DNA of 64,000 bases from Flexilinea sp. GTDB taxonomy: Bacteria; Chloroflexota; Anaerolineae; Anaerolineales; Anaerolineaceae. Under the pieces are notes generated by a model that saw only the letters and a program-made list of their open reading frames with translations, searched no databases and had not been told where the DNA came from. The DNA lies in NCBI GenBank assembly GCA_026645735.1, contig JAPKMT010000001.1, forward strand, positions 124,001 through 188,000, read 5' to 3'. A program made the position numbers and the translations under genes. Shown here piece after piece: positions 4,917 to 63,763 of the stretch. The number at the start of each line of letters is the position of its first letter. Positions within the stretch are counted from its first letter, which is position 1.

Positions 4917-5041
4917 AAGTGATCCGAAATATGAAAAGATTTCATTGTTGTTCTTATGGTTTTGCGCTTCGCGCTAACATTACACCACAACCAGGTTTTT
5001 TCTTTTTATTCGAAAAGAATATCCATATTTCGAATTATTGG
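4917..5041 (-). repeat. Palindromic MITE-like element, copy A
   Basis: AAGTGATCCGAAATATGA...CCATATTTCGAATTATTG ends; hairpin core TTTTGCGC-TTC-GCGC; flanks GAATTACTA/GAATCACTA. Confidence 0.75.
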
Positions 5042-9820: not shown

Positions 9821-9924
9821 CAGTAATTCAAAAAATGGGGAGGATACTTTGTTGTGGCGATGTTTTTGCGCTCCGCCAAAAACCACATAACAACCATTAA
9901 TCCTTCTTATATTTTGAATCGTAG
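9821..9924. repeat. Palindromic MITE-like element, copy B (short type, degraded)
   Basis: CAGTAATTCAAAAAATGG...ATATTTTGAATCGTAG; central TTTTTGCGC. Confidence 0.65.
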
Positions 9925-12229: not shown

Positions 12230-12352
12230 AAGCGATTTGCATGAAGAAAGGGATTATTTGTTGTTGTATTGTTTTTGCGCTTTGCGCAAAAACAATACAA
12301 CAACAATTTTTCTCTTATTTCTAAAAAGGTTTTACCAAATTTCGAATTACTG
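12230..12352 (-). repeat. Palindromic MITE-like element, copy C
   Basis: Perfect 23-bp hairpin TTGTTGTTGTATTGTTTTTGCGC-TTT-GCGCAAAAACAATACAACAACAA (12258-12306); right end CCAAATTTCGAATTACTG. Confidence 0.85.
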
Positions 12353-12382
12353 CTTCAATGAAGGGATAAACCTGAAAGAATA

Positions 12383-16484: not shown

Positions 16485-16588
16485 CAGCAATTCGAAATGT
16501 GTGGAAGAGGTTGCATGGTTGTATTGTTTTCTGATAAGCCCAAAAACAATACAACAACGAATAATTCTCCCCTAATTTCGAATCACTG
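16485..16588. repeat. Palindromic MITE-like element, copy D (short type, loop altered)
   Basis: CAGCAATTCGAAATGTG...CTAATTTCGAATCACTG; 13-bp arms GTTGTATTGTTTT/AAAACAATACAAC. Confidence 0.75.
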
Positions 16589-20737: not shown

Positions 20738-20838
20738 CAGTGAGATAAAACACGGGAAAATTATTTGTTATTGTGTTATTTTTGCGCGAAACACAAGATT
20801 ATCATAATAAAAGATTTCTCCTCCATTTGAAATGACTG
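20738..20838. repeat. Palindromic MITE-like element, copy E (degraded)
   Basis: CAGTGAGATAAAACACGG... TGTTATTTTTGCGC ... CATTTGAAATGACTG. Confidence 0.55.
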
Positions 20839-20856
20839 GTTCATCCTTCGAAATTG

Positions 20857-37506: not shown

Positions 37507-38334
37507 TCAGCAATTGCCAACATAGACATGCGGCAAATGTTGACGAGCGATCTCTGCCAGATGATAGACCCGTCTCACTTCGGTTGCATTTCGGTCCATC
37601 ATTCGAAAATGAGGAAAGAAGCGTGTGATGTGAAAGGGGATCTCCGGATTGATGCCAGCAATCCATTGTGCGATTTGCCTGATCTCATCTTCTGAATCAT
37701 TTTCTTCAGGGATGATCAGCGTCGTGATTTCTACATGGGTAGATTTTGCGCTCAGCTCAATTGTCCGCTTGACGGTTTCCAGATTGCCGCTAATTTTTTT
37801 ATAAAAAGATTCTGTAAAGCCTTTTAGATCAATATTCATGGCATCGATCCAGGGCAAAATTTCCAGAAGCGGTTTTTCTTCCACAGTTCCATTCGTAACC
37901 AATACGTTTTTCAGTTTTTTTTGATGCGCCAGTTTCGCACAATCCATGACGTATTCATAACTGATGAACGGCTCATTGTACGTATAGGCGATACCGATAT
38001 TGTCTCTGACTTTCAATTTCTGTGCTTCTTCAACCAGTTCCTGCGGCGATATCATCGTGATCCGGATGTGATCTTTGTAGGTCTGTGAAATGTCACTGTT
38101 TTGACAGAAGGGACATCGAAGATTGCAGCCGTAACTCCCGACTGATAAAATGAAGCTGCCGGGAAAAAAATGCCTCAGCGGCTTCTTTTCAATCGGATCA
38201 AGGGCAATGGAGGTTATTTTCCCATAATTGGTGCAGATAATCTGATTTTGAATATTGGTTCTTGCACCGCAGAATCCGGTTTGTCCTTCCTCCAGACTGC
38301 AATGATGGAAACAAATTTCACATGTTGTTTTCAT
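37507..38334 (-). CDS. AmmeMemoRadiSam system radical SAM enzyme
   Basis: SVGSYGCNLRCPFCQNSDIS (CxxxCxxC); EICFHHCSLEEGQTGFCGAR. Confidence 0.93.
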   Translation of the reverse strand: MKTTCEICFHHCSLEEGQTGFCGARTNIQNQIICTNYGKITSIALDPIEKKPLRHFFPGSFILSVGSYGCNLRCPFCQNSDISQTYKDHIRITMISPQELVEEAQKLKVRDNIGIAYTYNEPFISYEYVMDCAKLAHQKKLKNVLVTNGTVEEKPLLEILPWIDAMNIDLKGFTESFYKKISGNLETVKRTIELSAKSTHVEITTLIIPEENDSEDEIRQIAQWIAGINPEIPFHITRFFPHFRMMDRNATEVRRVYHLAEIARQHLPHVYVGNC

Positions 38335-39716
38335 AAATGGCGCACCACTTCAAACCGTTCCAATGAGACGGTTTCATCTTTTCGGATTCCAGCTTTCTGT
38401 TTGGCAATGGCGATCTGCTGTTCCACATTGTCGACTCCTTCCAGATTTGGAAGCAGTAAACCGCGCCGATAATCTTTCGAAACAATGACACCATATCGTT
38501 TTACATTCAATTGAGCGGGGGAATGGATGGGTTCTGCCGGTGAGAGTACATCTACGCTGTAAGTGAGATCCGGCAATTCTGCTGCTGTGACCGGAGGAAA
38601 ACGCGGATCATCCGTGCCGGAAGAAATCGCATTCATTATGATTTCTTCCGCAATATTTTTTGTGACGGGTGCAATTGTTCCGATACAGCCGCGTAATTGT
38701 CCGAATTTTTTTATGGAGACAAATACCCCTGCTCTCTCTGTCATCATCTCCTGCGGCAAATTTACAGGTGGCTTGATATGCTTTCGTGTCGCCAGGTAAG
38801 ACTCGAGTGCTGTTCTTGCCAGTCTGACATACGGATCCTCATGAATTTTCATCTCAGCCAGCCGGTCTTTCTCGATTTGTTCATAGACCCTGTCATAATG
38901 ACGGTTCTCATCTTTGCCGGTGATTTCAAAGGCGGCTACGCCATATCCAACCCCGAAAGGTCCTTCGTACGATAATAACGTCGGCCGGACAGACTGTCCA
39001 TCCAGTGCACCGGCCATAATCAAAAAGGATCGCAGCCCGCATTCGCCCGCTTTTTCACAGAGTTCAGGGTCCAGAGTGAAAAAATCAAGAAAATTTCCGG
39101 TTTCCATCGCATGGATTACTTTTTGATCGAATGCCGGACCTTCCGGCTGGTATCCATAAGGCCCGTCTTCTGTTAATCGATGCGAAAGGTCCCCGCTTGC
39201 AATGAATACTGTTTTACGATTGAGCTGTTCTGCGGTTTTAGCGATGCATTTGCCAAATTGGTAATGTGTTACCAATCGTTCCCCGGATAAACCGATCCGT
39301 ACCAGCTTATACGAGGTCCAGCATTCATTGATAAATTTCAACGGGATCAAGGTGCCATGATCGATTTCAGGATTGCGCTCGCCAAGTGTTCCGGCCGAAA
39401 TCAGCGCTTCCTGCGCGTTTTTTTCCAGCCTTTTGACAAATTCTTTATCATATTCAGCTTCCAGCATCGAATTGCGTACACCGAATTGTCTGAGATCTCC
39501 AACCGCTTTCGATCCCGGTGAAATATGAAAATAATCGGAATATAGAATGGAATGCGGTGTTGTGACGACAATTGTTTCCGGAGCAAGCTCGGCGATGCTT
39601 TTTGCTGCTGTCCGATAACTGTCGATGGTTTTCTGAATTTTTTTTTCTTCACCTTTTCCGATTTCCGGCAAAATAATTGGCGGATGCGGGACAATAAATG
39701 CACCGATAATGGACAT
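38331..39716 (-). CDS. Memo-AMMECR1 fusion (AmmeMemoRadiSam proteins B and A)
   Basis: N-term AFIVPHPPIILPEIG, ASGDLSHRL; C-term GVFVSIKKFGQLRGCIGTI, DPRFPPVTAAEL. Confidence 0.93.
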   Translation of the reverse strand: MSIIGAFIVPHPPIILPEIGKGEEKKIQKTIDSYRTAAKSIAELAPETIVVTTPHSILYSDYFHISPGSKAVGDLRQFGVRNSMLEAEYDKEFVKRLEKNAQEALISAGTLGERNPEIDHGTLIPLKFINECWTSYKLVRIGLSGERLVTHYQFGKCIAKTAEQLNRKTVFIASGDLSHRLTEDGPYGYQPEGPAFDQKVIHAMETGNFLDFFTLDPELCEKAGECGLRSFLIMAGALDGQSVRPTLLSYEGPFGVGYGVAAFEITGKDENRHYDRVYEQIEKDRLAEMKIHEDPYVRLARTALESYLATRKHIKPPVNLPQEMMTERAGVFVSIKKFGQLRGCIGTIAPVTKNIAEEIIMNAISSGTDDPRFPPVTAAELPDLTYSVDVLSPAEPIHSPAQLNVKRYGVIVSKDYRRGLLLPNLEGVDNVEQQIAIAKQKAGIRKDETVSLERFEVVRHL

Positions 39717-39785
39717 GCTGACTCCTTTTCCGGAAAACTTTGTTTCTTTAATTATATACAGCTGTCAACCGAGTTTGAAAACATG

Positions 39786-39908
39786 CAGTAATTCGAAATA
39801 TGGAAATGTTTTTCGAATAGAGAAAGTAAATTTGTTGTTCTTATAGTTTTGCGCGAAGCGCAAAACTATAAGAACAACAAAGAATTCTTTTCATATTTCG
39901 AATTGTTG
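39786..39908 (+). repeat. Palindromic MITE-like element, copy F, with 9-bp target duplication
   Basis: CAGTAATTCGAAATATGG...CATATTTCGAATTGTTG; perfect 24-bp hairpin (39831-39854/39858-39881), loop GAA; flanked by GAAAACATG (39777-39785 and 39909-39917). Confidence 0.9.
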
Positions 39909-39917
39909 GAAAACATG

Positions 39918-40032
39918 TATTCGAATATGGAGAGGATAATCAACAGTTGTGCTGATGATGCACTTCACTCATAAAGATCACAACAAGTTTTCTCTTTTTT
40001 CTTAAAAGTCTTTTCCAAAACTCGAATTACTG
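39918..40032. repeat. Degenerate copy F2
   Basis: TATTCGAATATGGAG...TTTTCTCTTTTTTCTTAAAAGTCTTTTCCAAAACTCGAATTACTG. Confidence 0.6.
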
Positions 40033-40130
40033 GTAAGTTTAAGAAAACTCTGCAGGAAAAACTGAATTGATTATCATTTCGTTATTTTTATTCCTCGTTT
40101 TCTATGATGAAATCGTATCGTCAAAATTAT

Positions 40131-40251
40131 TAGCAACGAAATATGGATTAACCTTTCAATTAAAAAGAGAAAATTTGTTTTACTAATAGTTTTGCGCTTC
40201 GCGCAAAACTATTAGTAAAACAAAGAATTCTTTTCATAGTTCAAATTACAG
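40131..40251 (+). repeat. Palindromic MITE-like element, copy G
   Basis: Perfect 24-bp hairpin TTTGTTTTACTAATAGTTTTGCGC-TTC-GCGCAAAACTATTAGTAAAACAAA (40174-40224). Confidence 0.85.
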
Positions 40252-40268
40252 TATCACTGGAGTTAACT

Positions 40269-41612
40269 TTGGATTTTTCTTCTTGCACCATTTCCGATCT
40301 GTTAGATCCTGAAGGTTTTGCATGTTCCTGCGGGAAAGTACATCGTGTGAGTCTGCGTTATGTAGATATTGCTCAAGGAGCAATAAACCGTATTCCTGAA
40401 ATGCTTCATAAAACGGGCGTCACAAAACCTTTTCTGATTGCCGATTTATGTACCTACGAAGCGGCAGGACGACGCGTCAGTGAAATCCTGGACGCATCCC
40501 ATATCCCATTCGCAAAGTATATTTTCCAGGTTGAACGACCGGAGTCGAATGAATGTGCTGTCGGTTTGGCTGCCATGGCGTTTGATACATCCTGTGACGG
40601 AATCCTGGCAGTGGGCTCCGGTTCCATCGGGGATATCAGCAAAATTATCGCCAGATTAAGCGGCAATCCTTTGATCACGATTGCTACTGCTCCTTCAATG
40701 GATGGTTTCGCTTCTCCAACCTGTTCCAACATTGTGAGCGGCCTGAAATCCACTGTGCCGGGTGTCTGTCCGATTGCGATCATTGGCGATTTGGATGTGC
40801 TTTGCAGTGCTCCGACCCGAATGCTTCAAGCCGGGCTTGGGGATATGGCAGCAAAACCGAATGCACTTCTTGAATGGCGCTTATCCAACTTGATTAATGG
40901 AGAATATTATTGCGGGAACGTGGCTTCATTGATGCGGAAGTCCGCTTATCAATGTCTTTCCTCAGCATCCGGTTTGATGAACCGGGATCCTCAGGCTGTT
41001 ACGCATATTATGGAGGGGCTGGTGATGTCCGGTATTGCCATGGCTTTTGCTGACACGACTCGGCCGGCATCTGGTATTGATCATTATTTTTCCCATATCT
41101 GGGATATGCTGGCACTTCAAAGAGGTGAACTGCCGGATTTGCATGGCATTCAAGTCGGGATTGGAACGATCTATTCTATTCAAATTTATGAGATGATCAA
41201 ACAACAAAAACCGGACAGTCATAAAGCGCGATCCTGCATGAACGAATTTGACTGGCAAAGATGGCAGCAGTCCATAAGGGAATTTCTTCCGTCTGCCGCC
41301 GACAGCATTATTCGACAGGCGGCAGCCGAGAATCGTTTTGATTCGCAAAAACATGCCAGTCGATTTCAAACGATTTCTCAGCATTGGGACGAGATTGTAC
41401 AAATAATCGCGGATGATCTCCCGGACCTGCACACAGTACGCAGTCAGCTGCAGTCGGCTGGAGCACCGGTTTCTGCACAGGAAATTGGCATCTCTCCGGA
41501 AATACTAAAAAGAACTTTTTTGACGACCAAAGATTTACGGAATAAATATATGGCCAGCAGTTTGTTATGGGATATGGGACTGCTTGAGGAAGCCGCAAAT
41601 AAACTTTTCTGA
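40269..41612 (+). CDS. sn-glycerol-1-phosphate dehydrogenase (AraM/EgsA-like), TTG start
   Basis: ILAVGSGSIGDISKIIA; TAPSMDGFASPTCSNI; AGLGDMAAKPNALLEWRL. Confidence 0.85.
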   Translation: MDFSSCTISDLLDPEGFACSCGKVHRVSLRYVDIAQGAINRIPEMLHKTGVTKPFLIADLCTYEAAGRRVSEILDASHIPFAKYIFQVERPESNECAVGLAAMAFDTSCDGILAVGSGSIGDISKIIARLSGNPLITIATAPSMDGFASPTCSNIVSGLKSTVPGVCPIAIIGDLDVLCSAPTRMLQAGLGDMAAKPNALLEWRLSNLINGEYYCGNVASLMRKSAYQCLSSASGLMNRDPQAVTHIMEGLVMSGIAMAFADTTRPASGIDHYFSHIWDMLALQRGELPDLHGIQVGIGTIYSIQIYEMIKQQKPDSHKARSCMNEFDWQRWQQSIREFLPSAADSIIRQAAAENRFDSQKHASRFQTISQHWDEIVQIIADDLPDLHTVRSQLQSAGAPVSAQEIGISPEILKRTFLTTKDLRNKYMASSLLWDMGLLEEAANKLF

Positions 41613-48611: not shown

Positions 48612-48734
48612 CAACAATTCGAAATATGGATTGGCTTTTTGAATCAATCAAGAAAATTTGTTGTTCTTATGGTTTTGCGCAAAGCGCAAAACCATAAGAA
48701 CAACATAGAATTCTTTTCATTTTGCGAATTGCTG
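48612..48734 (+). repeat. Palindromic MITE-like element, copy H
   Basis: CAACAATTCGAAATATGG...CATTTTGCGAATTGCTG; perfect 22-bp hairpin 48659-48680/48684-48705, loop AAA. Confidence 0.85.
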
Positions 48735-54235: not shown

Positions 54236-54358
54236 CAGCCATTCAGAATATGCGAAGAAGTATATGTTGTTGTGCTGTTTTTTCGTGAAGCGCAAAAACA
54301 ACATAACAATAAGTTTTCTCGATCGATTCGAAAGGTTGGTTCAGATTTCGAATTTCTG
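54236..54358 (-). repeat. Palindromic MITE-like element, copy I (imperfect hairpin)
   Basis: CAGCCATTCAGAATATG...CAGATTTCGAATTTCTG; arms TTGTTGTGCTGTTTTTTCGT / GCGCAAAAACAACATAACAA. Confidence 0.7.
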
Positions 54359-55333: not shown

Positions 55334-55455
55334 CAGCGATTTAAAATTTGGAAAAAAATAATTGTTGTAGTGTTATTTTTGCGCTTAGCGCAAAAATAAC
55401 ACTACAACATATTTCTCTCTTTATTCGAAAAGCTTTTCCAAATTTCGAATTCCTG
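55334..55455 (-). repeat. Palindromic MITE-like element, copy J, with near-perfect 9-bp target duplication
   Basis: CAGCGATTTAAAATTTGG...CCAAATTTCGAATTCCTG; perfect 22-bp hairpin 55363-55384/55388-55409, loop TTA; flanks CCTGACCAG (55325-55333) / ACTGACCAG (55456-55464). Confidence 0.88.
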
Positions 55456-60904: not shown

Positions 60905-60946
60905 TTTTTCTCTATTCGAAAAGCACTTCCATATTTCGAATAGCTG
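60905..60946. repeat. Short hairpin-less derivative of the palindromic element
   Basis: TTTTTTCTCTATTCGAAAAGCACTTCCATATTTCGAATAGCTG. Confidence 0.6.
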
Positions 60947-63718: not shown

Positions 63719-63763
63719 CAGTAATTCTTTATTCGAAAAGCCAATCCAAATTTCGAATTGCTG
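63719..63763. repeat. Compact hairpin-less derivative of the palindromic element
   Basis: CAGTAATTCTTTATTCGAAAAGCCAATCCAAATTTCGAATTGCTG. Confidence 0.65.

Follow-up and report, generated by a model that had tools for sequence, protein, structure and literature searches.

A very abundant, probable MITE family in Flexilinea with 9-bp target duplications, a covarying central hairpin and a probable partner insertion sequence

Hairpin-bearing repeats in a 64-kb window

What are the hairpin-bearing repeats that recur in a short stretch of a Flexilinea genome, what moved them there, and why are their hairpins so well paired? We analyzed bases 124001-188000 of contig C11 of a 3.35-Mb draft genome (Flexilinea sp., Anaerolineaceae; G000), and "the window" refers to this whole 64-kb stretch. 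An earlier note on this DNA had named 11 copies, A to J, and interpreted them as non-autonomous mobile elements with 9-bp target duplications. With copy F as its starting point, an iterated nucleotide HMM recovered every named copy in its place. It gave a window total of 11 full or degraded copies and 2 fragments of an element of ~123 bp, which is bounded by CAGYRATTCGAAATWTG ends and has a 24-3-24 hairpin at its center. The orientations claimed before (F, G and H forward; A, C and J reversed) hold under the HMM. With at most 2 mismatches allowed, the window contains 19 occurrences of the 14-base end motif CAGTAATTCGAAAT; 0.97 are expected, and shuffled sequence gave no more than 5. The features are as follows.

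4917..5041, minus strand: copy A, near full length, hairpin degraded; flanks GAATTACTA/GAATCACTA, 8/9
9821..9924, minus strand: copy B, shortened, without clear target duplication
12231..12353, minus strand: copy C, full length; exact repeat TTCAATGAA in the flanks, displaced by one base from the model end
16485..16588, minus strand: copy D, shortened internally, without clear target duplication
20741..20856, minus strand: copy E, degraded
39777..39785, no strand: left 9-bp target duplication of copy F, GAAAACATG
39786..39908, plus strand: copy F, full length (123 bp), terminal repeats (TIRs) at both ends; exact 24-3-24 hairpin, perfectly paired, at 39831-39881
39909..39917, no strand: right 9-bp target duplication of copy F, GAAAACATG
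39919..40032, minus strand: copy F2, degraded, hairpin lost, adjoining copy F
40131..40251, plus strand: copy G, left end degraded; exact 24-3-24 hairpin, perfectly paired, at 40174-40224
48612..48734, plus strand: copy H, full length
54236..54358, minus strand: copy I, full length
55334..55455, minus strand: copy J, full length; flanks CCTGACCAG/ACTGACCAG, 8/9
60905..60946, minus strand: end fragment, model positions 1-42, absent from the earlier list
63726..63763, minus strand: end fragment, model positions 1-38, absent from the earlier list

The flanking repeats of these copies are uneven. Those described earlier for F (exact), A and J (8/9 each) stand, and the exact duplication of copy C had been missed. 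No convincing duplication flanks copies B, D, E, F2, G, H or I, where the best match is 5-6/9 even with the ends shifted. Single copies in the window therefore do not all back the 9-bp claim on their own, and the genome-wide test carries it.

Two loci neighbor these copies. At 37507-39716 on the minus strand, adjoining copy F, are AmmeMemoRadiSam genes, one for a radical SAM enzyme and one for an AmmeMemoRadiSam A/B fusion protein. Directly downstream of copy G, at 40269-41612 on the plus strand, is a relative, below the curated cut-off, of NAD(P)-dependent glycerol-1-phosphate dehydrogenase, an enzyme of the archaeal-lipid type.

Target duplications, empty sites and spread within the genus

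Across 116 full copies, the identity between left and right flanks is 0.60 at k=9, compared with 0.29 for shuffled partners. At k=6-8 and k=10-12 it stays at background (0.28-0.33), so that the signal is confined to 9 bp. Flanks agree at 8/9 or better in 40 of the 116 copies, where 0.04 would be expected. In exact register, 63/116 match at 6/9 or fewer, which we tentatively attribute to age.

Orthologous pairs of filled and empty sites lead to the same length. The filled site is longer by the element and exactly 9 bp more, and the target is present once at the empty site. The cleanest pairs are the G000 insertions at C55:88844 and C22:154365, whose sites are empty in G010, taken to be the sister species F. 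flocculi. Conversely, the G010 insertions at C3:513749, 739830 and 476888 correspond to empty sites in G000. In some filled/empty pairs the flanks have diverged.

The copies are also numerous. The HMM finds 171 in 830 kb sampled from G000, 118 of them near full length, and 314 in 1.2 Mb sampled from F. flocculi. Copies cover 2.2% of the first sample and 2.7% of the second. Extrapolation from the sampled stretches gives genome totals of about 690 (G000) and about 900 (F. flocculi). At 2-3% of the sampled sequence, the family ranks among the more abundant MITEs of bacteria, and our literature searches found no MITE family described for Anaerolineaceae, Chloroflexota. The earlier note had held that mobility would be refuted if the genome contained no other copies or if relatives offered no empty sites; hundreds of the former and several of the latter were found.

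The distribution is restricted to a clade. With one mismatch allowed, the CAGYRATTCGAAATWTG pattern gives 622 hits in G000, 550 in G010 and 141 in a third genome (G003), while the reversed-pattern control gives 0-1. Elsewhere in the genus, there are 10 hits in G008 and 0-1 in ten other genomes, including one single-contig, 99%-complete genome. The full-length query has no match outside the genus among 61 genomes. Between 89 and 91% of the copies are intergenic, as expected if insertions into genes are lost. Many intergenic gaps are occupied in both species, often by more than one copy per gap.

Hundreds of intergenic copies that carry hairpins could also be REP/BIME-like repeats moved by a RAYT (Y1 tyrosine) transposase, an enzyme that recognizes single-stranded hairpins. 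RAYT/Y1 elements are not known to make a target duplication, whereas an exact 9-bp duplication is present here. In addition, Y1_Tnp (PF01797) is absent from G000, G003 and G010, while control genomes give matches. We regard the RAYT origin as practically ruled out by the 9-bp duplications.

Some copies are associated with other repeats. Sequences abutting several copies (ATGAAAGAAATTACACATCC...) were considered as a gene family and rejected; they are instead a non-coding block of ~65 nt inside the right TIR of some copies. In both species this block, CAGCAGATGAAAGAAATTACACATCCGATAATGAAAATTGAATTC(T/A)ATTTTCATAGGAATTGCTG, breaks up the right TIR of several copies (C55:9101, C55:67539, C66:68353 and C85:56626 in G000; several in G010). 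Possibly the block represents another mini-element nested in the first, or else the copies with it form a longer MITE subfamily. A second dispersed repeat of ~190 bp in F. flocculi, CCTGTCATTGCGAGCCCCGAAGGGGCGTGGCAATCTC...CTCGCAATGACAG, is often joined to the 65-nt block (G010 C3 near 434000, 521360, 690719, 753270 and 1190199).

A candidate autonomous partner

In line with the earlier note, which saw no transposase or RAYT gene in the window, PF01609, PF00872 and PF01797 (RAYT-type) have no match there. The earlier note had proposed looking for a transposase whose insertion sequence (IS) has matching ends, and such an element is found in F. flocculi (L109:821-2452), agreeing in both ends and duplication length. 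This IS of 1632 bp starts with CAGCAATTCGAAATATG, ends with CATTTTTCGAATTACTG and is flanked on both sides by exact 9-bp GCATTCTGT. Its left end agrees with the MITE consensus at 17/17 positions and its right end at 18/21. It carries an intact 446-aa ORF for a DDE-type transposase, which scores 19.9 bits against PF01609 (DDE_Tnp_1; cut-off 23) and, at its N terminus, 20.6 bits against PF13808 (DDE_Tnp_1_assoc; cut-off 32.3), in both cases below the cut-off. The protein has no NCBIfam match, and its profile matches no solved structure. This gives the MITE a likely transposase, one still without a name in the NCBIfam library.

Homologues of this transposase, at 38-40% identity, lie in ISs with the same type of ends. 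One in another genus (L126; transposase 38% identical) has CAGCAATTCCAAATTTG ends and an exact 9-bp GGAATATAT. A second (L208) is broken by stops and has 9-bp flanks matching at 8/9, and one end was seen in each of two more (L125 and L209). CAGCAATTC-type ends and 9-bp duplications thus occur together in three homologues, one of them at 8/9, which indicates that both travel with this transposase family.

The nearest described relatives may be ISAs1-type ISs, which include the E. coli H-repeat protein YhhI (PF13808 with PF01609). Members of the ISAs1 family have ends beginning with CAG and duplications of 8-10 bp, and the L109 element and its homologues agree with this type in ends and duplication. 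Like ISAs1-type proteins, the L109 transposase matches PF13808 at its N terminus, although weakly. BLASTP aligns it with YhhI weakly but collinearly, including a C-terminal W-x-x-E-N motif, and the profile comparison of the two is not significant. Judged by its sequence, the L109 transposase resembles the ISAs1 type; we withhold membership because the profile tests fall below their cut-offs.

Other ISs in these genomes were considered as partners. IS256-type elements are the commonest ISs found in G010, and their family often makes 8-9 bp duplications. A single IS256-type transposase lies at C17:17533-18600 in G000 and has 12 near-identical family copies in G010; an IS1634-family transposase at C83:1-1057 in G000 is cut by the contig start. 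When the IS256 borders in G010 are aligned, they lack CAGYRATTCGAAAT ends at their start, and the IS1634 copy is followed solely by an ordinary MITE-like copy, whereas the L109 element combines both ends with the exact 9-bp duplication. IS256 (PF00872) and the IS1634 fragment were ruled out as partners on their ends, and mobilization by an IS of either type rather than by the L109 family is hardly credible.

In the window's own genome the partner may be missing. The L109 transposase has no match in the draft genomes G000 and G003 (92% and 80% complete), and the 830-kb sample of G000 holds no long element with CAGYRATTCGAAATWTG-type ends and a 9-bp duplication. ISs collapse in assemblies. The window's copies may have been orphaned of their IS.

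Taken together, the copy number, the length-specific 9-bp duplications, the empty sites, the clade-restricted presence and absence, and an IS that agrees in its ends and in the length of its duplication argue for the reading of the earlier note. With high probability, the repeats form a MITE family, that is, non-autonomous elements of ~123 bp with ~17-bp TIRs (CAGYRATTCGAAATWTG) mobilized in trans by a transposase of the DDE type. Such an enzyme, encoded by an IS of 1.4-1.6 kb with the same ends, would move, or would have moved, the MITEs, and its 9-bp staggered cuts would duplicate 9 bp of target at each insertion. The L109 transposase or a lost close relative may have been the one that mobilized them.

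The hairpin and the comparison with known systems

The hairpin evolves in a manner distinct from the ends. The subfamilies have their ends in common and vary in the sequence of the arms, where changes compensate each other. Among 56 disjoint pairs of nearest copies, there are 70 cases in which both bases of a stem pair were replaced to give a different Watson-Crick pair, compared with 4.8 expected for independent arms. The terminal repeats, in the same comparison, show 1 compensatory change against 175 single changes. The 3-nt loops form reverse-complement pairs (GAA 68/TTC 52, AAA 34/TTT 35, GGA 20/TCC 17), and the loop is thus found in both orientations about equally, although the asymmetric flanks fix the orientation of the element. 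Mispairing in the stem amounts to 5% where the target duplication is 9/9 and climbs to 20% where it is 0-3/9 (Spearman -0.34, p 3e-7). Since mispairing grows as the duplication is lost, the hairpin is well paired at the time of insertion and decays afterwards.

Strong covariation in a stem is also what a host-domesticated regulatory RNA or transcription terminator would show, if the hairpin acted in mRNA and were selected at each site. The other observations disagree with a role in mRNA. Copies have no orientation bias relative to flanking genes (same/opposite 46/41 and 92/93), convergent gaps are not enriched, and no other type of gap is favored. Pairing decays with the loss of the target duplication, the loop occurs about equally in both orientations, and Rfam has no match in the window. 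A selected host RNA is thus very improbable. We find no evidence of a general regulatory function; the copies would have no general role in the host, and individual ones could still matter. Arm covariation, both loop orientations and the decay of pairing together indicate that the hairpin is a property of the mobile lineage and not a host regulatory RNA.

How the lineage keeps its hairpin can be compared with template switching between short inverted repeats, whose known signature is homogenization of the arms with inversion of the spacer (PMC8604942, PMC8794818). The published cases and the present family share arm homogenization, stem changes that compensate each other and a 3-nt spacer that inverts; in the yeast example, TAT2, the spacer change is likewise GAA to TTC (PMC8604942). 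Those cases concern single gene sites, whereas here the process is deduced for hundreds of mobile-element copies rather than traced event by event. Fast flipping of the loop is argued from the near-equal numbers of exact reverse-complement loops. On a tree, loop orientation changes 60 times, and shuffling the labels gives 64 +/- 4. Loop type, with orientation ignored, is itself only weakly clustered, and therefore the tree alone is no proof that flipping outpaces point mutation.

We tentatively suggest, as one possibility, that recurrent template switching during replication in the transposing lineage, and not selection on an RNA, keeps the hairpin near-perfect by homogenizing its arms and inverting its loop. 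The hairpin may in addition aid transposition, for example as single-stranded or cruciform DNA exposed to the transposase. Alternatively, selection for the hairpin in transposition could maintain it. Hundreds of copies that can be dated by the decay of their 9-bp duplications constitute a natural data set for comparing template switching with selection for long hairpins.

The family is new, but the kind of element is already known. Short, non-coding, dispersed copies with TIRs, a target duplication of fixed length, empty sites and a related autonomous element in F. flocculi are what defines a MITE, and on its sequence features the family is a new, very abundant one with a probable autonomous partner IS. 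The Correia elements of Neisseria, ERIC and the Chunjie elements of Geobacter are likewise short, non-coding, TIR-bounded, intergenic and high in copy number, with flanking direct repeats and a transposase acting in trans (PMC10969869). The Flexilinea family differs from them in its ends, its length and its 9-bp duplication. With about 700-900 copies it lies at the upper end of the range given there, in which ERIC reaches up to 711 reported copies in Photorhabdus luminescens (PMC10969869). In contrast to those families, its center is formed by a single long hairpin that is nearly perfect, with arms that co-vary and a 3-nt loop that can invert, and the concerted evolution of this hairpin is the unusual part of the family.
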